Shown: piece by piece, positions 1-49,932 of the stretch
Numbering within the stretch: position 1 is the first letter of the stretch
Layout: each line of letters begins with the position of its first letter
NCBI GenBank assembly: GCA_030622545.1
Contig: JAUXGA010000002.1
Coordinates: 1-64,000 of the forward strand
DNA from: a bacterium
GTDB lineage: Bacteria > Electryoneota > RPQS01 > DYHQ01
Length of the DNA: 64,000 nucleotides
Reading direction: 5' to 3'
Translations under genes and position numbers: made by a program
The notes under the pieces: generated by a model
Database searches by the model: none
The model's input: only the letters and a program-made list of their open reading frames with translations
What the model was told of the DNA's origin: nothing

Positions 1-101
1 GGCAGTTCCGCCGCATTGCCACGCGCTACGACCACTTCGTCGAAAACTACATCGGCTTCCTGCACCTCGGATGTATGATCATTCTCCTACGATGTTTTTA
101 A
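1..101 (+). mobile_element. IS5-like transposase, 3' end only (cut by window edge)
   Basis: Read from base 3, the frame is open to a TAA at 99-101 and gives about 32 residues containing FRRIATRYDHFVENYIGFLH. This is the usual C-terminal signature of IS5-group DDE transposases: an R-[IV]-ATRY block followed by a hydrophobic stretch. The rest of the element lies outside the window, so it is unknown whether it is intact. It sits about 70 bases from the lspA stop and points towards it. Confidence 0.7.
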
Positions 102-1132: not shown

Positions 1133-1258
1133 TTACGCCGATGTCCGTTCAACCCTCAGAATAAATTCTAACCCGTTTGCCTTCAATTTAGTTCCCTCAA
1201 AACGTGCCTCTTCCGTTAGAATTTTCGTTGCGAGAGTCTCGCGGCGAATTTCATATTC
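1133..1258 (-). pseudogene. Stranded native C-terminus of isoleucyl-tRNA synthetase
   Basis: Just after the stop of the ileS-TPR gene, in a different minus-strand frame, 41 codons end in TAA at 1133-1135. They contain EIRRETLATKIL and later GLEFILRVER. This is the pattern that ends type-2 IleRS proteins (a basic I-K/R-x-E-T-L-A block, then a short beta segment of the G-x-E-x-x-L-x-V-E-R type). It also aligns with KIKTEILATKIS inside the fused protein, so two versions of the same tail are present. The fragment has no plausible start of its own. I infer it is the original ileS 3' end, left behind when the AT-rich segment carrying a replacement tail plus TPRs was acquired. Confidence 0.7.
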
Positions 1259-1262
1259 CTTA

Positions 1263-4200
1263 TTAAGCACTTACGAGCTTGATGAAATCTTCATCGTTGC
1301 GGATTCCTTTGAAGTCTGTATCATCCATTGCTAGCTGTTTCAAAGATGGCTGAAGTTCTATCGCTTTACGTAAGTCTTGCAATGTTCTTGCTTTATCTGC
1401 CATTTTGGCATATGCACAGGCGCGATTGTACCACACTTCTGATCTATCAGGTGCGTATTTTAGAGCTTTATTATATTCCTCTACAGCTTCATCCAGTCTA
1501 TTCATTTCGCTCAGAACTTTTCCCTTTTCATTCAGAGCTTCGACAAAGGTAGGTTTAACAATGAGTGCCTCTGTGAATGCATGTAGCTGTTCTTCTAGAG
1601 GACTGTTTAATTTGTGAAGCACGATTCCTTTTTTATACCAAGCCTCGTCCTGATTTGGATCAATAAGGATTACTTTCTCAAACGCAGCAAGAGCTTCGTC
1701 ATATCGCTCTAACTGGCCGAGTGCAACACCTTTATTGTGCCAAGCAGCGACATAATTAGGAGAATGCTCGATAGCTTTTTCACAGGCATGCAGTGCATCA
1801 TTATAGCGTTTGAGCCTATTTAATACATATGCCTTGTTAGCCCATGCATCAGCAAAATCTGCTTTTAGTTCGAGAGCTTTTTTAAAAGCAGATAAAGCTT
1901 GTTCGGCTAATCCGGTTTTACTTAACGCAACTCCCTTGTTAAACCATGCTTGAGCAAGATTTGGATTTTGTTCAATTGCGGTGTTTGAGCACTCATTAGC
2001 TTCTTCATAGCGACCCAACATATTGAGACTTGCTGCCATCTGTGACCATGCCTCTGGGTAATCTTTCCTTATGTTTATTGCTTCTCTGTAAGCATTTAGA
2101 GCTTGAGAGTGGTTTCCCATTCTCCCATGTATCACTCCGATTTGGTATATTGCCTCTGCATAATTTGGTTTGCATTCAACTGCCTTCTGGAAAGCATTAA
2201 GTTGTTCATTTAATGGCCTTCCCAAATTCCCCAATATTCCGCCCATGTTGAGCCATGCAATTGCTAGATCAGGTCTCAATTCGAGGGCTCTTTCACAAGC
2301 ATGTAAAGCATCATTGTAACGTTTGAGCCTATTCAAAGTATAGGCCATGTTAGTCCATGCTTGCGTGTAATCCTCTCTATATTGGATCGCTTTGTTATAT
2401 GAATCGGCAGCTTTCTTAAAGCGCTTAAGTTCTCCAAGAGCCACACCCCTGTTGAACCAAGCTTCGTCATAATCTGGTTTTAACTCAATTGCTTTCTCGA
2501 ATGCGCTCAGCGCCTGATCAGGTTTGCTCATCCCACTAAAAACAACCCCCATTCCAGTCCATGCTTCAGGAACATCTTGCTTAATTTCAATTGTCTTCTG
2601 AAAGGCACTAAGCGACTCATTAAGATTATCCGTCTGCATCAAGAAAACGCCCTTTGCAAGCGATGCCTCAAAGAAATCAGGCTTTAAAACTAAGGCTTTG
2701 TCAATTACCTTTAGTGCTTCTTCTGGTCGCCCAAGTTTGTTGAGAGTAACACTTTTATTGTACCATGCCTCAGCGATATCTGGTTTGATCTCGATAGCCT
2801 TGTCAAAGGCCTGTAATGCCTCAGCGAAACGATTGAGTTTTCCCAAGTCAATGCCTTTGGAATGCCATTTCTTGGCGTCTGTCTCTGTAATTGAATGATC
2901 CTTGACCTTCAATTCAATAGCTTCGTATTTCCACGGTTCTGTTGGATTGTCCGGTTTTTTTATCAACAGAACGAAATTAAATCTTTTAGGCTTATTGTCG
3001 GACCCAGTGATAACAAACGAACCTCTTTCTTCAAAGGGTTCGATTTCCATGAAAACAACTGAATCTGCTTTTCCTTCTATGGAGATCTTTGTTGCTAAGA
3101 TTTCGGTTTTTATTTTTTCCAAATTTTGCGTTAATGCGAACTGGAGCTTTTCAGAGTCCGTTGAAATTAAAGCATGGCCTTCGAACCTATCAATTAATTT
3201 TAATCCCTCCTTCTTTCGTCTGTTTTGTGCGTGATGTACAAACTCGCGCACAAGTCCTTCCGTCACCAGCTCATCCGTCAAATCCGTTTCTAGCGCCACC
3301 GTCATAAATCCGTCGCTTTTTAGCGCTAATCCCGGTTTTTCAATGCGCCGAACCTTAATATCATCATTCGTGATAACGACGGAGTCGATTTCATGGCTTC
3401 CGCCGGCTTCCACCTCGGCAATGGTTTCTTCAGGCAAAGCGGCGATTGCAGATGCGATTTCTTTCATTTTCTTGCCGACTCGCGGGCCTAATGTGCTGAA
3501 ATTCGCCGTCGCGGAAAGCGTAACTAATTCAGAATCATCGGTATGGAACGTGATTTCCTTGATATTCAGTTCCGCGGCCAGAATTCGCAAAAACGGGGCC
3601 AGCTCATCAGACGAAATTTCCTCTCCCGGCACAACCCATCGGAGAGCCGCAAGTGGCTGTCTTACTTTAAGGTTGCGCTCCTGTCTCAGCGCCCTTCCGA
3701 GGCTCGCGGCCTTCATAGCTCTTTCCATCAGCCGTTCAAGTTTTTCATCACGCAACTCATTGTTTGCTTGAGGGTAACGGCACAAATGTACGCTGTCGGG
3801 CGCCTCGCCTCCAAATCCAAGCACGAGGTTCTGGTAAATCCGCTCGGTTAAAAAGGGCAGGAAGGGAGCCAACAGATACATCAGTCCTGTCAGCACCTCG
3901 TAAAGCGTTTCATACGCCGCCGCCTTGTCCTCGTCGCTCTCAGATTTCCAGAAGCGCCGTCGCGAACGCCGAATGTACCAGTTCGTCAAAAGGTCAAGAA
4001 ACCGCGTCACCGCTCCCGCCGCTGTCGCCACATCATATTCGTTAAGCGCATTTGTCACCTGCGACACCAGCGTCTGATATTCGGAGATAATCCAGCGATC
4101 CATCAGTCTGTCGGATGTCGTCGTTCCGGCACTGTTCGGCTGCCAGCCGTCGATGCGCGCATATGTTACGAAAAAACTATATGAATTCCAAAGCGGCAGA

Positions 4201-6359
4201 ATCACACTGCGGATAGGTTCGGCGATTTCGTCTTCATTGAAACGCTTCGTGTTCCACGGATTCGACGCGTAGAAAAGCCACCGCACCGGATCAGCGCCAT
4301 GCTTGTCGAAAAGCCCCATCGGATCAACGACATTACCGCGCGACTTGCTCATCTTCATCCCTTCTTTGTCGAGGATGAGCTCCGTGCAGATGACATTTTT
4401 ATACGACGACCAATTGTGTACATCTTTCCAAAAATCCTCGCGCTCCTCGTTGCCTTCTTCGCGGCATTGTATCGCCTGCGCTTTTGAAACCAACACACTG
4501 CACGCTAAGAGCGTATAAAACCATCCGCGTGTCTGGTCAATCGCTTCGCAGATAAAATCACAAGGATACTGACTTTCGAAAAGCGCGACCGAACCCGGCT
4601 GAGCCGGATGTCCGAACTGTCCCCACGGCATCAATCCCGCGTTGAACCAACTGTCTAATACGAAATTTTCCCGCCGCATTTCATGGCCGTCCGGGCAACG
4701 CAGAATGACATCGTCAATACCCGGCTTGTGTGGATCGAATCCTTCAGGAAGTCCCGCCCCGCCCGACGCGCGCACGCGCTCGTCAAGTTCTTTCAGTGTG
4801 CCCACGCATTCCTGATGGTTGCAGCCTGCGTGCGTGCAGCTCCACACCGGCAGCGGACTTCCCCAGTAGCGCTCGCGCGTGATATTCCAGTCAATCGCGC
4901 CTTCAAGCCACTTGCCGAACCGGCCATCGCGAATGTGACCCGGTCGCCAGCCGATAAGATTGTTCGCTTTCAGCATATCCTCGCGCATCGCTGACGTGCG
5001 AATGAACCACGATGGCCGTGGGAAATACATTAGCTGAGTTTCACATCGATAACAAAATGGGTATGAGTGTGCATAATCTTGAACAGAAACGAGCATGTCT
5101 TTTCCATCAAGATTTTTTATTATCTCTGTTGTGGCTTCATCTTCAAAGAAGGATTTCTTATATAATCCAAATATTTCTTTGGAGACGTAATCTTCGAACG
5201 AACCCTCTTCATTCACAGCCAGAAAAAACTTAATTCCTTTTGCTCTGAGAATTCTCAGATCATCTTCACCATAAGGCGCAAGATGGACAAGACCTGTTCC
5301 ATCAGCCGCTGTTACATATTGATCATGGTAGACTCTATGCATTGCATTATCATGTCGGTTTTGGAACGTCCATAAGGGTTCATAGCTTATTCCGTCCAAT
5401 TCCATCTTGCTGCCATGTGTTGTGTTAATACGCTTAAAATTCCCTAGTAGGGGTTCAAGAGCCGCGCGTCGTGCTTGTGCAACTATAAGGCGGTCACCTT
5501 TATTTCCTGAGGGGCCATCTGCTGTCAATTCAAGTATATCGTAATTAATTGAGGGTCCCACCGCGATCGCTTGATTAGAAAGAAGTGTCCATGGTGTTGT
5601 CGTCCATACTACCAGATATGTAGGTTTTTCACGATATAATCCTGGTCCTTCTATTATCTTGAATTTGACAAAAAGAGATCTCTCTGTTATATCTTGATAT
5701 CCCTGCGCTGTTTCAAAGTTTGACAAGGATGTACCACACCGGCAACACCAGGGTTGAATTCTGTAACCTTCATAAAGATACTTTGGGGATTCTCCTTTGT
5801 GTTGAGCAGCTAGGCGTTCAATGCTTCCAGGTTCAAGTTCAAGATTCCACGCTTGCTTGAGCGTCCACCAGTCCGACTGAATGTAGTATGGCTGATAGGT
5901 CGCGTACGCATTTTCCAAATCGAGAAAACGGCCGATGCGATGAATCGCGTCTTCCCATGTTTTCTTGTAGCGGAAGACCGTCGAGCGGCAGTAGTCGATG
6001 TATTTCTGCACACCGTACGATTCGATTTCGCGCTTGGATTTCAAACCCAATTCGCGTTCCGCGGTCAGTTCCACCGGCAGCCCGTGCGTATCCCATCCGG
6101 CTTTGCGCAGCACGCGATAACCCTGCATCGTCTTGTAGCGCGGCCATAAATCCTTCAGCGCGCTTTGCATCATATGCCCGATATGCGGCTTGCCGTTCGT
6201 CCCCGGAGGGCCGTCATAAAAAACGTAATCGGGTTTGCCTTCACGCTCAGCAATCGAACGTTCAAAGATTTTTTTCTTCGCCCAGAAGTCGAGAATCTCC
6301 ATCTCGTACTTCGGCAAATCAAGTTTCTGTGGTACAGGTTTTAACATGGTATCCGTCAT
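1263..6359 (-). CDS. ileS: Isoleucyl-tRNA synthetase fused to a C-terminal TPR array
   Basis: A 1698-residue protein, where class I IleRS usually has about 1,030-1,080 residues. The synthetase part shows HIGH (59-62), the editing-domain WTTTPWTL (252-259), GTGLVHLAP (354-362) with GEDD (364-367), and KMSKS (669-673). The editing loop reads APYGEDD, one residue shorter than the usual APxxGEDD. The anticodon-binding and C-terminal parts run to about residue 1105. After a linker, about 15 TPR units of 34 residues (AWxNKGxxLxxLxRxxEA pattern) fill roughly 1158-1690. DNA for residues ~177-443 (5030-5830) and from ~1042 to the end (3235-1263) is visibly AT-richer than the rest. The native tail appears stranded downstream. 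What the TPRs bind is unknown. The gene lies upstream of dksA-lspA. Confidence 0.93.
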   Translation of the reverse strand: MTDTMLKPVPQKLDLPKYEMEILDFWAKKKIFERSIAEREGKPDYVFYDGPPGTNGKPHIGHMMQSALKDLWPRYKTMQGYRVLRKAGWDTHGLPVELTAERELGLKSKREIESYGVQKYIDYCRSTVFRYKKTWEDAIHRIGRFLDLENAYATYQPYYIQSDWWTLKQAWNLELEPGSIERLAAQHKGESPKYLYEGYRIQPWCCRCGTSLSNFETAQGYQDITERSLFVKFKIIEGPGLYREKPTYLVVWTTTPWTLLSNQAIAVGPSINYDILELTADGPSGNKGDRLIVAQARRAALEPLLGNFKRINTTHGSKMELDGISYEPLWTFQNRHDNAMHRVYHDQYVTAADGTGLVHLAPYGEDDLRILRAKGIKFFLAVNEEGSFEDYVSKEIFGLYKKSFFEDEATTEIIKNLDGKDMLVSVQDYAHSYPFCYRCETQLMYFPRPSWFIRTSAMREDMLKANNLIGWRPGHIRDGRFGKWLEGAIDWNITRERYWGSPLPVWSCTHAGCNHQECVGTLKELDERVRASGGAGLPEGFDPHKPGIDDVILRCPDGHEMRRENFVLDSWFNAGLMPWGQFGHPAQPGSVALFESQYPCDFICEAIDQTRGWFYTLLACSVLVSKAQAIQCREEGNEEREDFWKDVHNWSSYKNVICTELILDKEGMKMSKSRGNVVDPMGLFDKHGADPVRWLFYASNPWNTKRFNEDEIAEPIRSVILPLWNSYSFFVTYARIDGWQPNSAGTTTSDRLMDRWIISEYQTLVSQVTNALNEYDVATAAGAVTRFLDLLTNWYIRRSRRRFWKSESDEDKAAAYETLYEVLTGLMYLLAPFLPFLTERIYQNLVLGFGGEAPDSVHLCRYPQANNELRDEKLERLMERAMKAASLGRALRQERNLKVRQPLAALRWVVPGEEISSDELAPFLRILAAELNIKEITFHTDDSELVTLSATANFSTLGPRVGKKMKEIASAIAALPEETIAEVEAGGSHEIDSVVITNDDIKVRRIEKPGLALKSDGFMTVALETDLTDELVTEGLVREFVHHAQNRRKKEGLKLIDRFEGHALISTDSEKLQFALTQNLEKIKTEILATKISIEGKADSVVFMEIEPFEERGSFVITGSDNKPKRFNFVLLIKKPDNPTEPWKYEAIELKVKDHSITETDAKKWHSKGIDLGKLNRFAEALQAFDKAIEIKPDIAEAWYNKSVTLNKLGRPEEALKVIDKALVLKPDFFEASLAKGVFLMQTDNLNESLSAFQKTIEIKQDVPEAWTGMGVVFSGMSKPDQALSAFEKAIELKPDYDEAWFNRGVALGELKRFKKAADSYNKAIQYREDYTQAWTNMAYTLNRLKRYNDALHACERALELRPDLAIAWLNMGGILGNLGRPLNEQLNAFQKAVECKPNYAEAIYQIGVIHGRMGNHSQALNAYREAINIRKDYPEAWSQMAASLNMLGRYEEANECSNTAIEQNPNLAQAWFNKGVALSKTGLAEQALSAFKKALELKADFADAWANKAYVLNRLKRYNDALHACEKAIEHSPNYVAAWHNKGVALGQLERYDEALAAFEKVILIDPNQDEAWYKKGIVLHKLNSPLEEQLHAFTEALIVKPTFVEALNEKGKVLSEMNRLDEAVEEYNKALKYAPDRSEVWYNRACAYAKMADKARTLQDLRKAIELQPSLKQLAMDDTDFKGIRNDEDFIKLVSA

Positions 6360-6420: not shown

Positions 6421-6810
6421 TCATTCTTGACCCAATACCGAATTTCCATCATTATCCTTAAATATTGTGTTGTCCAAAGATTGGTCAGCACATCTTCGCT
6501 TAAAATAAAGGATTTCATGTGTTTTTAACCCTACACAAGTAGAAGTTGCATTACATAGCTCCCACCCTTCTTTACCCAGATCATTTAGGATATTATCTAT
6601 TCTGATTATCCCTTTACGCTTTTTTCCTCTGAGTTTGGGCATACGTGCAGTAACATCATAACTGTAATAAGCGTCAGTAGAATTTGTGTAAGGATAAAAA
6701 AAGAGTGTTTTGTACTCCCAGCAATCTGATTGATGACTTGGTTCAGAGCCAACTGCCAAAGAGATAACTAATAACGGCAGAGCGATGGTGAATGGAAAGA
6801 TCTTAAACAT
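6421..6810 (-). CDS. Secreted DUF4177-like small protein
   Basis: A 129-residue protein with a hydrophobic N-terminal signal peptide (about residues 1-21). The mature part begins with CWEYKTLFFY, contains LNDLGKEGWELC and ends with ILYFKRR. The WEYK / L-x-x-L-G-x-E-G-W-E-L / Y-F-K-R series is the signature of DUF4177-type domains, whose function is unknown. A GGAG-containing ribosome binding site precedes the ATG. The gene is AT-rich and sits with the next gene between the punA/divIVA block and ileS, which suggests acquired DNA. Confidence 0.65.
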   Translation of the reverse strand: MFKIFPFTIALPLLVISLAVGSEPSHQSDCWEYKTLFFYPYTNSTDAYYSYDVTARMPKLRGKKRKGIIRIDNILNDLGKEGWELCNATSTCVGLKTHEILYFKRRCADQSLDNTIFKDNDGNSVLGQE

Positions 6811-6917
6811 AATAATATCTCCGTCAAAGTTTTCTTCTATGTTGATTCTTGTAGTCCATCTTCTTTCTTATGTTAAAAACAATTTTCATCTGAAAGATCA
6901 AGAAGCTTGTGAATAGT

Positions 6918-7565
6918 TCAATTGCTACTTGCCAACGCAAGTTTCTTTTCGATAAGTTCTCTGACGTTCGGCAAGAGCCTAATAGTCAGTAACTCCCCGT
7001 CTCTATGAATTTCCAAAAGAATATCCTCAAAATTTTTCATGGAAGCGATAATTCCTAAAAGATAGTATCTGACAGTTTCTGCATGATATGGTGGTTCCTG
7101 CCATGATATTGCTTCAGCCAAAGCTCGTACATGCTCTTTAGCACCTAGATTCTTCCCGTCAACATCATATAAATAGCGTAGTGTATCGTTTCTAAGTCTT
7201 CCAATGAACTGCTCCAAAGGGAACTCATCTGGAGTCTTGTCGATTTTTGATTTTATTTTCTTGTTTTCTAGAGTGCGATCATATAACTCAAACGTCAAGT
7301 TGCCAAATTTCAGCGTCCTTATTCGGTTTATCGCTTGTTCCAAATTCTTTCCACCAAATCTTATGACAAATACAATCGCAATTGCTATTAGGATGACCGG
7401 ATTATTAACAAGTTGCCATACTGCCCATAGTAGAGTGGTAGTTACATAATCAAAGCCAGTTAGAAAAGAAGTTTTATCGACAGATGCTCTATATCCTCCG
7501 ATTACAAGAAGAATGATAATGATAATCGGAATGATGAAAGTGATTCTTTTAGTGATTTTCTGCAT
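6918..7565 (-). CDS. Membrane protein of unknown function
   Basis: A 215-residue protein I do not recognise. Residues 8-25 are strongly hydrophobic (IIPIIIIILLVI), and a second hydrophobic stretch lies at about 42-70. A soluble, charged C-terminal domain of about 140 residues follows, rich in Lys, Glu and Leu. It probably anchors in the inner membrane with the C-terminal domain in the cytoplasm, though this is inferred only from charge distribution. The gene is AT-rich like its downstream neighbour, and a composite palindromic repeat separates it from mscS. Confidence 0.55.
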   Translation of the reverse strand: MQKITKRITFIIPIIIIILLVIGGYRASVDKTSFLTGFDYVTTTLLWAVWQLVNNPVILIAIAIVFVIRFGGKNLEQAINRIRTLKFGNLTFELYDRTLENKKIKSKIDKTPDEFPLEQFIGRLRNDTLRYLYDVDGKNLGAKEHVRALAEAISWQEPPYHAETVRYYLLGIIASMKNFEDILLEIHRDGELLTIRLLPNVRELIEKKLALASSN

Positions 7566-17179: not shown

Positions 17180-17422
17180 ATGACCGATTCCACGTCCCCT
17201 TTTTCCGGTAAAGAAAAAGCCCCCAAAAATTTCGAAGATGCGCTGCAGGAATTAGAAGAACTCGTAGCGAACCTCGAAAGCGGCGATGTTCCGTTGGAGG
17301 ATTCTCTGAAAGCTTTTGAACGGGGGCAGAAGCTTTTACGTTTTTGCGAAACGAAACTGACGAAAGCCGAACAGGTGCTGAAAAAATTATCGCAGAGTGG
17401 AGATAAGGCGGCGCCTACGTAG
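17180..17422 (+). CDS. xseB: Exodeoxyribonuclease VII small subunit
   Basis: An 80-residue small subunit that binds the XseA helical region. The signature FEDALQELEELVANLESGDV is followed by PLEDSLKAFERGQKLLRFCE. The ATG is immediately after the xseA TAA. The expected next gene in many genomes is an isoprenoid gene or nadK; here a nuclease gene intervenes. Confidence 0.95.
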   Translation: MTDSTSPFSGKEKAPKNFEDALQELEELVANLESGDVPLEDSLKAFERGQKLLRFCETKLTKAEQVLKKLSQSGDKAAPT

Positions 17423-17552
17423 CGGCGAATTTTCAGTCAGACCGGGGACGTGTGGGTATGGGAACTTTGAGCCCCGCCGGCAGCCCGCCTTCCGGTTTGT
17501 CGGTCGGGATTTTTTAATTTTAGGGGGTCGGGATGATTCGACAAAAAGAATT

Positions 17553-18734
17553 ATGAATGACATAGAAGCATTAGAAAAGCTTGTTCTTGATGACGATTTC
17601 CAAGAGCTGTCGCGCATTCTTAAATCACGACCGCCGAACATCTTCAGAATTCTTGGGATTGAGTACGATGAAGTGCGATGGTCTGCTTTTCTTGCATGGC
17701 TTTTGGACCCGAATGAAGACCATGGCTTGGGAGATAAGTTTCTGCGGGCTTTTTTGGTAGATATATTGAAAGATGCTCGTGACGAAAAACTTCGAGCTAT
17801 TGATATTTATTTGAAGAAACTGTCAGATGTCGAAGTCAGAGTAGAAGAGGATTTTGGAGAGTACGGGAGAGGGGATATTACGATTCGGTGTCACGAAGAC
17901 AATCTGCTTTGTATCATAGAGAACAAAGTTTGGAGTGCGGAGGGAGAAGATCAGACAGAACGGTACTTTAATGCTGGCGAGGAAATTAAAGTCGATGAAG
18001 GATTTGAGAAGGTTGTTTGCATTTTCCTTACACTCGATGGTACACTCCCCAAGAAAGAAGAATTTATTCCATATAGTTACCGTCAATTAGTCGAAGTATT
18101 GGATAGTACCATTGCTCTGGGTGAGTGGATTCCGAATCAAGCATTGGGATTAATCAAGCAATTTCATCAGAATGTTCGAGAGGTAATCGGAATGCAGGAT
18201 TCAGACGAAGTTAAAGAACTATGCAGAAAAGTTATATCGAAGCATATGCCTGCGATAGAAAAGTTGTATCAATACTGGCCTGATCGCAAAAGATTTTTTG
18301 CTGATTTAGCTAATGCAATCGATGAGAAAGAAGAGATTTTTAATGTGTACATCGGATCATCTTGGATGTTTCTATCTCCTAAAGGCTGGATACGGAATAC
18401 AAAGAATAATTCAGACCTATACTACTTAATTCTTGATTATGGTAAGAATATCATTTTTGTACTTGAGTATGCTACAGGGCGAGAAAATATTGAAATACCT
18501 GAGCCTTTGAAAAACTGTGTCAATAAATTGCTGGAAAAGCAAGAAGGTCATTTCCGAGCTAAGCCACATCCTAATTTGGATTATAAATTGGCAGAAGAGT
18601 GGACGAAGATTCCTGTTCCCACCAATTATACTAATTGGGAGCATAAAATAGAAGAAATTACTAAACGGTTTCTTGATTTTCTTGAGAGATTTCCAATAGC
18701 GACGCTTGAAGAAGTGCCCGGAGTAAAGGGGTAA
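17553..18734 (+). CDS. PD-(D/E)XK nuclease family protein
   Basis: A 393-residue protein of the PD-(D/E)XK superfamily (PDDEXK_4 type). The core reads GRGDITIRCH (Asp108), then LLCIIENKVW (Glu123-x-Lys125), with Gln134 and Tyr138 in DQTERY, the usual D...ExK...QxxxY order. An alpha-helical N-terminus contains RWSAFLAWLLDP. The gene is clearly AT-richer than xseAB and nadK and is inserted between them. 130 bases separate it from xseB, including a G+C-rich stretch ending in a T run (about 17495-17517). Relatives include solitary nucleases near defence genes, but its role here is unproven. ATG at 17553 is chosen as the first start after the non-coding leader. Confidence 0.8.
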   Translation: MNDIEALEKLVLDDDFQELSRILKSRPPNIFRILGIEYDEVRWSAFLAWLLDPNEDHGLGDKFLRAFLVDILKDARDEKLRAIDIYLKKLSDVEVRVEEDFGEYGRGDITIRCHEDNLLCIIENKVWSAEGEDQTERYFNAGEEIKVDEGFEKVVCIFLTLDGTLPKKEEFIPYSYRQLVEVLDSTIALGEWIPNQALGLIKQFHQNVREVIGMQDSDEVKELCRKVISKHMPAIEKLYQYWPDRKRFFADLANAIDEKEEIFNVYIGSSWMFLSPKGWIRNTKNNSDLYYLILDYGKNIIFVLEYATGRENIEIPEPLKNCVNKLLEKQEGHFRAKPHPNLDYKLAEEWTKIPVPTNYTNWEHKIEEITKRFLDFLERFPIATLEEVPGVKG

Positions 18735-23321: not shown

Positions 23322-23726
23322 TTGCTCGACGGTCAGCAGACCGCTGACGGCGGCTATATCCTTGGGGGGTATACTTTGTCCTACGGGGCGGGCTGTAATG
23401 ATTTCTGGCTGGTGAAGACGGGGCCGGGACTTTCAGCGGAATCGTCAGAAAATCTCTTGCCGAGCGAGTATGTGCTTTACCAGAATTTTCCGAATCCCTT
23501 TAATCCGGTGATGGAAATTGTGTATGAAATGCCGAAAACGGGAGATGTTTCACTGCGCGTGTTCGATATTCTTGGGCGCGAAGTAGCGACGCTTGCTCGA
23601 GGGCATGTCGGAGCGGGATCGCATCGAGTCATGGTTGATGGGAGTTATCTTCCGTCGGGAATTTATTTTTATCGGCTTCAAGCAGGAGATTTCACGGCGG
23701 CGAAGAAGATGGTGTTGTTGAAGTAA
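23322..23726 (+). pseudogene. 3' remnant of a repeat protein with a C-terminal sorting domain
   Basis: A 134-codon open frame starting at TTG. It begins with one half-unit of the repeat QQTADGGYILGGYT / GAGCNDFWLVKTG and continues into a complete C-terminal domain (NFPNPFNP ... GSYLPSGIYFYRLQAG ... MVLLK). The same repeat and domain occur full length at 35107-36567. It lacks a signal peptide and the N-terminal repeats, so it is probably a 5'-truncated relic left by recombination. Confidence 0.75.
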
Positions 23727-23746
23727 ATAGACCAAAGGAATATTTC

Positions 23747-24727
23747 GTGCAAATTTATGTATCAACTTTTGTTGGCTTTTTTGTATCAGTAGCACTTTTT
23801 TGGTTGACCTATAGGCAAACTGCAGGTGCACGAAAGGAACGTGTTAAAAGTGCAAACACTGATCTTGAAAAGATATTGCTTCGAAGAATTGTATTAGAAT
23901 CTTACCAACCGACTCTTAGAGATTTGTCTTTCATAATTAACGGGAAAGCACGTGATTTTCGTGTTAAATCACGTGATCTTCTTTCTGAAAGTCAATTATT
24001 AGAAACTCTTGTCACAAGAATTAGTGAAAGCGATTTTATCGATGCCTCACGACGCCAAGAAATCCTCGACCGCCTTTCACCGATTCTGATAAGTGCTGAA
24101 GATGCACCGATTGATGAGAGTCGTTTGACAGAATTGCCATCCAAGAAACAGAAAAGAATTCGACTGCTAGTCACTTTATCCGCGGGGATATTTGCTTCAA
24201 TATTGGGTACATTTACAGCACTAATTACTTTGCCTAAAAAGGAACTCGCATTAGATATAAAAGATTCTTCCTTTATTCCGGTGATGATTGCGTTTATTGC
24301 AAGTATGGCAGCGATTATTCTCATGATTATCATAAATCGTTTAAGAGAATCACAAGAGGAAGATAGTGAAACGAATTCACTTCAGTTGGAAATTGATTTT
24401 GAGCAGACTATCCAGCGATTTGTGAGAAAGCACGCAAGAAATATCATTTATGTTCATCCAAAAGTTAATTTTGATTTTATTGCACTATTTGGAGATAGAA
24501 AGATTTTGATTGAGGTTAAGACTTGGGCGCGGCCAGTTCCATCATCCGTTATTTTCCCTATTGTGTCTCGTCTAAACCAAGCGATAAAAGATGAAAATGC
24601 TTCCGAAGCAATAGTTGTGACGAGAGCAGACATGAAAGCCCCCTCAGAATTACTAAAAGATACTCAAGTGCATATTATGTCACTTCGTGAATTTAGGAAT
24701 TATATTGTCCACAAATTCACCAAATGA
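23747..24727 (+). CDS. Membrane-anchored protein with a PD-(D/E)XK-like nuclease domain
   Basis: A 326-residue protein with hydrophobic segments at about 5-21, 140-161 and 176-198. After them a C-terminal domain carries VNFDFIALFGDRKILIEVKTW: Asp243, Glu256-x-Lys258, the D...ExK core of restriction-like nucleases (Mrr/VRR-type). The first soluble part (30-135) is helical and charged. GTG start with AAGGA upstream. Strongly AT-rich compared with the neighbouring methyltransferase and propeller genes. Function is unknown; anchored nucleases of this type could act in defence, but this is inference. Confidence 0.7.
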   Translation: MQIYVSTFVGFFVSVALFWLTYRQTAGARKERVKSANTDLEKILLRRIVLESYQPTLRDLSFIINGKARDFRVKSRDLLSESQLLETLVTRISESDFIDASRRQEILDRLSPILISAEDAPIDESRLTELPSKKQKRIRLLVTLSAGIFASILGTFTALITLPKKELALDIKDSSFIPVMIAFIASMAAIILMIIINRLRESQEEDSETNSLQLEIDFEQTIQRFVRKHARNIIYVHPKVNFDFIALFGDRKILIEVKTWARPVPSSVIFPIVSRLNQAIKDENASEAIVVTRADMKAPSELLKDTQVHIMSLREFRNYIVHKFTK

Positions 24728-48076: not shown

Positions 48077-48247
48077 ATGATGAAGAGAGAATTTCAGTGC
48101 GCGGGCACATATGGGAAGTTCCCCATGGCGCTCCCAGACCCGCTGCGTATCCCAACGCCAAAGCGACTGGAATCTCTCCTGCAGGAAGCGAATGAGATTA
48201 AGGCAATATTGATCACGATGTCCACAAAAGCCCGCCGCCGGCTATAG
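48077..48247 (+). CDS. 56-residue hypothetical protein
   Basis: A short frame below usual cut-offs: MMKREFQCAGTYGKFPMALP followed by LESLLQEANEIKAILITMST and a basic end. AAAGGAG lies 7 bases before the ATG at 48077, an ideal ribosome binding site, and the second half is a plausible amphipathic helix. No family is recognised; a link to four-helix-bundle tails is only an impression. It lies between the cytochrome and the methyltransferase-nuclease gene. Confidence 0.5.
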   Translation: MMKREFQCAGTYGKFPMALPDPLRIPTPKRLESLLQEANEIKAILITMSTKARRRL

Positions 48248-48250
48248 GAA

Positions 48251-48270
48251 CAAGGGGCTTAAGCCCCTTG
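48251..48270. repeat. Perfect 20-bp palindrome
   Basis: CAAGGGGCTTAAGCCCCTTG is fully self-complementary. It lies between the micro-ORF and the 28-bp direct repeat before the methyltransferase gene. It may be a terminator or REP-like remnant; no T tract follows. Confidence 0.6.
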
Positions 48271-48290
48271 CTATGCCCCTTGTATTTGGA

Positions 48291-48318
48291 TTTTGGATTT
48301 TCAATTTCGGATTTTCTA
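48291..48318 (+). repeat. 28-bp direct repeat, left copy
   Basis: TTTTGGATTTTCAATTTCGG then ATTTTCTA, ending directly before the methyltransferase ATG. An exact second copy is at 50056-50083, just before mrdA, so the two bracket the gene. The sequence is of low complexity, which weakens but does not remove the significance of an exact 28-base match. Confidence 0.7.
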
Positions 48319-49932
48319 ATGGAAAACACCCTCTACTACGGTGACAACCTCGACATCCTGCGGCGCTACGTCAAGGACGAATCGGTCGATTTGATTTACC
48401 TCGACCCGCCGTTCAAGAGCAGTCAGGATTACAACGTGCTCTTTGCCGAGCAGAACGGCACGCGCGCAGCAGCGCAAATCATGGCGTTCGAGGACACGTG
48501 GCGATGGGATGAGGCGGCGGCTTCCGCGTTCGAGGAAATCGTCGTCGCAGGTGGCAGAGCCTCACAAGTGATGCAAGCCTTCCGCACGTTCCTCGGCGAG
48601 AACGACATGATGGCGTATCTTTCCATGATGGCCCCGCGCCTCGTCGAGTTGCGCCGCGTTTTGAAATCCACCGGTTCTATCTATCTTCACTGCGACCCCA
48701 CAGCGAGCCATTATTTGAAGATGTTGATGGATGCGGTGTTTGAGCCTATAAACTATCGTAATGAGATATCTTGGAAAAGGTCAAATCCAAAGAGTCATGG
48801 CAAAATAAATTTTCCTAATTGTCGAGATATTATTCTTCGATTCTCTAAATCAAAAGACAGTAGATTCAACAAGGTATTTGGTGAGCATGATCCTGAATAT
48901 GTTTCAAGGGCTTATCGATATGAAGATAAAAAAGGGCGTTATCGACTATTGCCATTACTGAATCCGAATGATAATCGCCCGAATCTAACTTATGAATTTC
49001 TGGGAGTCACGCGCGTCTGGAGATGGACGAAAGAAAGGATGGGGAAGGCTTACAAAGATGGATTAGTAGTCCAACTTAAGCCCGGTGCTGTACCTCAATA
49101 TAAACTCTATTTGAGTGAATCAAAGGGTCGTACGATTACGAATGATTGGAATGACATTCAACAAGCAGCTGGCAATGAATCATTAGGTTACCCCACCCAA
49201 AAGCCCGAAGCTCTCTTAGAGCGGATTATTCAAGCGAGTTCCAATGAAGGCGATGTCGTTCTTGATCCGTTCTGCGGATGCGGGACGGCTGTGGCGGTCG
49301 CGCAGAAACTGAATCGAAATTGGATTGGGATTGATATTACGCACCTCGCAATTTCGCTGATTAAACAGCGGCTGTTCGATTCCTTTGGTGATAAGGTTCA
49401 ATATGAAGTTGTCGGTGAACCGGTTGCGCTTGCCGGTGCTGTCGAACTCGCCAAGCAGGACAAGTTTCAGTTTCAATGGTGGGCGCTTGGACTGGTGAAC
49501 GCGCGGCCTGTCGAACAGAAGAAGGGAGTGGACAAGGGCATTGACGGAAGACGCTACTTCGTTGACGGGCAAGACCGCCACACCGAATCCATCATCTTCT
49601 CGGTGAAAGGTGGACATACAGGCGTGAAAGATATTCGTGATTTGCGCGGTGTGATTGAACGGGAGAAAGCGGCCATCGGTATATTCATCACGCTGGAAAA
49701 ACCGACGGCTCCCACGCGCAAGGAAGCGGCTGCGGCGGGCTTTTATCATTCCGATTATCAGGGAACCAAACATTCGCGGCTGCAGGTTTTCACGATTGAG
49801 GAGCTGTTGGAAGGGAAGGAGTTGGACTTGCCGCATCTGGCGCGAGTGCCCAGCGCTGATTTGACGTTTAAGAAGGCTCCAAAAGCGAAGAAGAAGCAAG
49901 TTAAACCTGAGTCGTTGGATTTTGATAAATGA
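48319..49932 (+). CDS. DNA methyltransferase with C-terminal restriction-nuclease-like domain
   Basis: A 537-residue protein. The beta-class amino-methyltransferase order is visible: DPPF (29-32, motif IV), a target-recognition region (about 143-290), YPTQKPEALLERII and motif I VVLDPFCGCGT (313-323). After about residue 380 a second domain has WWALGLVNARPVEQKKGVDK then GIDG (407-410) and IIFSVKGG (425-432), the D...(S/Q)xK core of Mrr-like nucleases. It may therefore modify and cut DNA in one chain, as type IIG-like systems do; cleavage is inferred. DNA for residues ~141-311 is AT-richer than its flanks. The ATG follows the left 28-bp repeat. Confidence 0.82.
   Translation: MENTLYYGDNLDILRRYVKDESVDLIYLDPPFKSSQDYNVLFAEQNGTRAAAQIMAFEDTWRWDEAAASAFEEIVVAGGRASQVMQAFRTFLGENDMMAYLSMMAPRLVELRRVLKSTGSIYLHCDPTASHYLKMLMDAVFEPINYRNEISWKRSNPKSHGKINFPNCRDIILRFSKSKDSRFNKVFGEHDPEYVSRAYRYEDKKGRYRLLPLLNPNDNRPNLTYEFLGVTRVWRWTKERMGKAYKDGLVVQLKPGAVPQYKLYLSESKGRTITNDWNDIQQAAGNESLGYPTQKPEALLERIIQASSNEGDVVLDPFCGCGTAVAVAQKLNRNWIGIDITHLAISLIKQRLFDSFGDKVQYEVVGEPVALAGAVELAKQDKFQFQWWALGLVNARPVEQKKGVDKGIDGRRYFVDGQDRHTESIIFSVKGGHTGVKDIRDLRGVIEREKAAIGIFITLEKPTAPTRKEAAAAGFYHSDYQGTKHSRLQVFTIEELLEGKELDLPHLARVPSADLTFKKAPKAKKKQVKPESLDFDK

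Follow-up and report, generated by a model that had tools for sequence, protein, structure and literature searches.

Layout of the ileS-TPR Gene

The window analyzed here, a 64,000-nt stretch of contig JAUXGA010000002.1, carries on its minus strand (1263–6359) one long reading frame in which ileS is fused to a TPR array. The encoded protein has 1,698 aa and a mass of 193.9 kDa, its Pfam domains follow each other in the order tRNA-synt_1, Anticodon_1, DUF5915, and TPRs, and a genome-wide profile scan (TIGR00392, 801.7 bits; the genome is 96% complete) identified it as the only ileS of this genome. The initial annotation had described an IleRS frame running without a stop into about 530 residues of some 15 TPRs. 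The open frame is real, the TPR part and its cap together spanning 539 residues, and the repeats number exactly 15 by repeat count and by the helix pairs of a structure model.

Read from the N-terminus, the gene is divided into several parts, all on the minus strand. A native tract of residues 1–171 (5847–6359) contains the first half of the Rossmann fold, and is followed by a foreign-looking tract of residues 172–449 (5013–5846), which from the known structure of class I synthetases and the positions of the motifs we take to be essentially the CP1/editing region. A second native tract of residues 450–1039 (3243–5012) covers the anticodon-binding domain and most of DUF5915. The end of the IleRS C-terminal domain, residues 1040–1135 (2955–3242), again looks foreign and closes with a modeled β-strand at 1124–1134; behind it lie a linker of about 24 residues (1136–1159; 2883–2954), the 15 TPRs (1160–1671; 1347–2882), and a C-terminal cap (1672–1698; 1266–1346). 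Beyond the stop codon and out of frame, positions 1133–1258 hold 41 codons and a stop that read as a stranded native 3' end of ileS.

The Synthetase Part Is a Type-2 IleRS

Profile and structure comparisons indicate that residues 1 to ~1135 are a type-2, eukaryote-like IleRS (IleRS2). The score against the ileS profile TIGR00392 (797.9 bits) is above the cut-off of 621.4, and the nearest solved structure is IleRS2 of Priestia megaterium (8c8v, 766 bits), compared with 254 bits for IleRS1 of the same species (8c9e). A model of residues 1–1190 (pLDDT 86.3) matches 8c8v over 1,139 columns with a TMt of 0.85, versus 0.77 to 8c9e, and given this match a normal IleRS2 fold is predicted for the patchwork enzyme. 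The C-terminal Cys4 zinc motif is absent, residues 901–1160 containing no Cys at all. The class I motifs HIGH (at 59) and KMSKS (at 669) are present, the editing residues are intact (WTTTPWT at 252 and GTGxVH/GEDD at 354–367), and W252–T258, N262, H359, and D367 are invariant in an alignment of the CP1 editing region. Because all these motifs are intact, charging of tRNA-Ile and editing of mischarged tRNA should have been kept. Like the fusion protein, P. megaterium IleRS2 has a catalytic core, a CP1 editing domain, and a zinc-free C-terminal domain; unlike it, the 1,032-residue P. megaterium enzyme has no TPR tail (PMC10485003, PMC4861432).

The Tail Is a Long TPR Superhelix

The tail matches TPR_1 with 294 bits, exceeding the Pfam cut-off, and consists of tandem 34-residue helix pairs; the TPR end-of-group domain NF047558 is complete in the cap region (residues 1642–1696, profile positions 1–55 of 56). 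In a model of residues 900–1698 the last IleRS strand stops at 1134, residues 1144–1156 within the linker have a pLDDT below 50, and 15 helix pairs with a pLDDT of mostly ~90–95 lead to the cap, whereas the pTM of 0.55 does not fix the placement of the enzyme relative to the tail. Among solved TPR superhelices, that of O-GlcNAc transferase (OGT; 1w3b, TMt 0.82) comes closest, at 24% identity, which is the level of consensus TPRs. The two share the fold and a long uninterrupted array, but the array of OGT sits on a glycosyltransferase and the present one on IleRS. TPR superhelices generally bind protein partners, and in view of this usual role the 61-kDa superhelix on its linker is probably a docking arm, by which the synthetase would be held in a complex or at a cellular site.

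TPR arrays are common here as C-terminal modules, and in this genome they also form the tails of a receiver-domain protein and of coiled-coil or membrane proteins. Because the other TPR genes of the genome have a low GC3 as well (0.43–0.53), the AT-richness of the TPR part by itself proves little about its source.

A Native 3' End Is Stranded behind the TPR Stop Codon

The 41 out-of-frame codons had been read initially as an IleRS C-terminus. We compared them with the IleRS of a sister genus (G001), the sole other genome of the family in the comparison, which is ~1,100 aa long and free of TPRs. The frame aligns with the final 35 residues of that protein (residues 1068–1102 of 1,103) with a Smith–Waterman score of 82, against a mean of 29.7 and a maximum of 46 in 2,000 shuffles, and thus matches the native gene end. 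Homology at the DNA level starts ~12 nt past the TPR stop codon. Since the DNA identity of the fragment to G001 (~70%, calculated from the alignment score) resembles that of the native tracts (72% for residues 450–1039), the fragment shows no visible decay. A GTG that overlaps the TPR stop (1263–1270) shares its frame with the stranded tail, so that a 45-residue peptide could formally be made by coupled translation.

The in-frame and the stranded ends align with each other (KIKTEILATKIS with EIRRETLATKIL), which bears out the proposal that two alternative tails of one gene sit side by side. On this alignment, the in-frame C-terminus (residues 1040–1135) is another, diverged copy of that gene end.

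Composition, Identity, and Trees Suggest a Mosaic

Sharp changes of GC3 occur at residues 171, 449, and 1039, with successive values of 0.66, 0.30, 0.60, and 0.36, and of the window's 47 ORFs none has a larger GC3 break than ileS. Amino acid identity to G001 changes along the gene as well, from 91% (residues 20–171) to 47% (192–440), 85% (450–510), 71% (511–1039), and 39% (1040–1090). An AT-rich imported segment had originally been placed at about 3235 to 1262; the import and the recombinant segment at the 3' end hold up, but the left boundary moves to ~3242 (residue 1039/1040), and the second AT-rich, foreign-looking tract at 5013–5846 had been missed. The 3' tract comprises the end of the C-terminal domain, the linker, and the TPRs, and its GC3 is similar throughout, which fits a single donor. 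The second strongest GC3 break in the window (log-likelihood gain 13.7) is found at 48202–49929, in what looks like a DNA methyltransferase frame, and may partly be an artefact of the stop-to-stop frame.

Residues 192–440 are equidistant from all relatives in the phylum, with 47% identity to the sister genus, 48% to the neighboring family, and 46% to the rest of the phylum. In a tree of the backbone the window joins G001 (support 98, end branch 0.16), whereas in a tree of residues 192–440 it is unplaced, with an end branch of 1.75–1.81. AU tests of the CP1 tract rejected neither the grouping with G001 (p 0.41) nor that with the order (p 0.31), so topology alone is no proof of an import of CP1, and accelerated evolution of this tract is possible. 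The argument for an import of CP1 is carried by composition and the abrupt edges of the tract and not by topology. The CP1 of G001 itself (L009) is 54% identical to the neighboring family and 55% to the rest of the phylum and, unlike its flanks, shows no order signal, a hint that the CP1 region may have been exchanged repeatedly, or may drift more, in this family.

Distribution and Search for a Donor

The fusion is known from one genome. The TPR tail is absent from all ileS genes found in the 39 genomes of the phylum that were compared, a few of these genes being contig fragments, and none was seen among the ~150 ileS matches listed for a sample of 386 genomes. The only other frame above 1,300 aa among those matches, of 1,443 aa in G062, has its extension on the N-terminal side and was set aside. 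Searches for a donor of the CP1 tract (the 386 genomes and five genomes of a nearby phylum) and of the C-terminal tract with the linker (the 386 genomes) gave no full-tract match above ~52% identity, which is no closer than the phylum's own members; of the five nearby-phylum genomes one was new beyond the 386, and it had no strong match to the CP1 tract. The best-looking match to the linker (L046 in G016) was discarded as TPR similarity only. In a plasmid search no match covered at least 80% of the linker/TPR query, and the matches shown were TPR proteins or had other annotations, e.g., CHAT-domain protein and serine protease. The initial annotation knew of no described IleRS-TPR protein, and our search of papers under open licences likewise found none.

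Genome Context

Directly upstream of ileS, at 6421–7565, two AT-rich genes (GC 0.36–0.37) encode proteins of 129 aa and 215 aa to which no function is assigned. They may have arrived with the same foreign DNA; as a pointer to the donor they were abandoned, the 215-aa protein having no homolog in 242 genomes. More AT-rich genes are present at 17382–18731 and 23639–24724 (GC 0.41 and 0.38) against a background of 51% GC. The contig starts within what appears to be the end of an IS transposase (window 1–100; QFRRIATRYDHFVENYIGFLHLG), and this may be why the contig breaks off there.

Relatives differ in what lies between the purine nucleoside phosphorylase gene and ileS. G062, which belongs to another phylum, likewise has a purine nucleoside phosphorylase gene as the immediate upstream neighbor of ileS (L122), and this gene order is therefore old or recurrent. 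Shortly upstream of ileS, G012 and G007 encode a TPR-tailed protease of the HtrA/trypsin type (L034:8400–10298; L035:10355–11815). In these proteins, at the same locus, a TPR array of the same consensus type forms the C-terminal module of another enzyme, but their gene is separate from ileS and not fused to it.

Origin of the Fusion

The composition break at 3242, the fall in identity from 71% to 39%, and the position of the native 3' end, immediately after the TPR stop, together support the original proposal that an AT-rich ileS end with a TPR array recombined into the gene. Because ~45 native codons are missing, the event was a replacement. The left edges of the foreign tracts fall in regions of the gene that are conserved among relatives, no att-like direct repeats of at least 14 nt were found at the junctions, and no integrase is encoded in the insert, which encodes IleRS and TPR sequence only; these features fit recombination with a related ileS, and site-specific integration of an element into the 3' end of the gene was rejected for want of junction repeats and an integrase. 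From the uniform composition and the missing start site we infer that the donor already carried the fusion.

In the history that we consider probable, AT-rich ileS2-type sequence from a relative would have taken over two parts of the gene, the CP1/editing tract and the final portion of the C-terminal domain, with the in-frame linker and the complete 15-TPR array arriving along with the second tract. A right-hand breakpoint within ~20 nt of the TPR stop would have left the 41 native codons as a remnant. The recombinant product, as the sole IleRS, would charge tRNA-Ile and edit mischarged tRNA, and its TPR arm would dock the enzyme to partners. A more specific source, an unsampled AT-rich lineage in which an IleRS-TPR scaffold is fixed for a multi-synthetase or ribosome-linked complex and from which the module and the editing-domain swap were transferred here, seems rather unlikely.

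The main rival accepts the recombination and holds that the TPR array is a passenger without a role, tolerated on a normally working enzyme. The tail occurs in one genome only, TPR tails are found on unrelated proteins in the phylum, and the event may be recent because the stranded tail is as similar to G001 as are the native tracts. Against this stand 539 stop-free residues in which all 15 repeats are well formed and the cap is complete, as well as the cost, for an abundant and essential enzyme, of carrying 61 kDa of tail to no use, and we regard a tail of this kind as somewhat improbable. It is very unlikely that nothing was imported, the tracts being native but fast-evolving or hypermutated and the TPRs taken over from a TPR gene of the same genome. 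Such a view draws on the nonsignificant AU test and the AT-leaning composition of those genes, but GC3 shifts abruptly, the genome's own TPR genes reach only ~40–56% protein identity over short stretches, DNA matches to the genome are at most 72% over 86 bp, and the coexistence of two alternative ileS ends marks the C-terminal tract as a second copy. A chimeric assembly of sequence from two organisms might be suspected since the gene lies ~1.2 kb from the contig end (window position 1 is contig position 1); it would need three switches between native and foreign sequence within one frame and, past the stop, a switch back to native sequence, no repeat of the junctions that could misjoin the assembly exists elsewhere in the genome, and contamination is 0.27%, making it extremely unlikely. 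That the TPR part is produced or cleaved off as a separate protein, as the low-confidence linker might suggest, is barely credible, as TTG codons are the only candidate starts between residues 1105 and 1240, with no ATG and no Shine–Dalgarno-like site, or any good ribosome-binding site, ahead of the repeats.

Comparison with Other Extended Synthetases

Class I synthetases of cyanobacteria, IleRS included, have gained the noncatalytic CAAD domain in species that have no paralog, and CAAD-bearing IleRS was found in 11 species (PMC4893482). In ValRS this domain brings the enzyme to the thylakoid membrane, and in the cyanobacterial synthetases its addition altered location and hardly kinetics (PMC4893482). 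The CAAD domain is an internal, membrane-anchoring insertion, whereas the tail described here is a C-terminal soluble TPR superhelix; a CAAD/CURT1 domain is not among the families listed for the fusion protein, and the tail models as TPR. The CAAD synthetases are the closest functional precedent. NCBIfam NF040702 likewise describes IleRS with an unrelated domain, although a different one (N-acetyltransferase/GNAT), and the fusion protein scores 229.3 against its cut-off of 1999. Domains appended to IleRS are thus already known (CAAD, GNAT), and no precedent with TPRs turned up.

To our knowledge, essential synthetases are rarely remodeled. The present gene records its own remodeling, with the old and new ends adjacent, the native backbone intact, and no backup copy, and it indicates that an essential synthetase can swap its editing region and C-terminus while an in-frame scaffold of 539 residues is added. 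Should docking be the role of the tail, the fusion would be a bacterial, nonmembrane equivalent of the CAAD synthetases and would offer a tractable way to ask whether synthetases are channelled.
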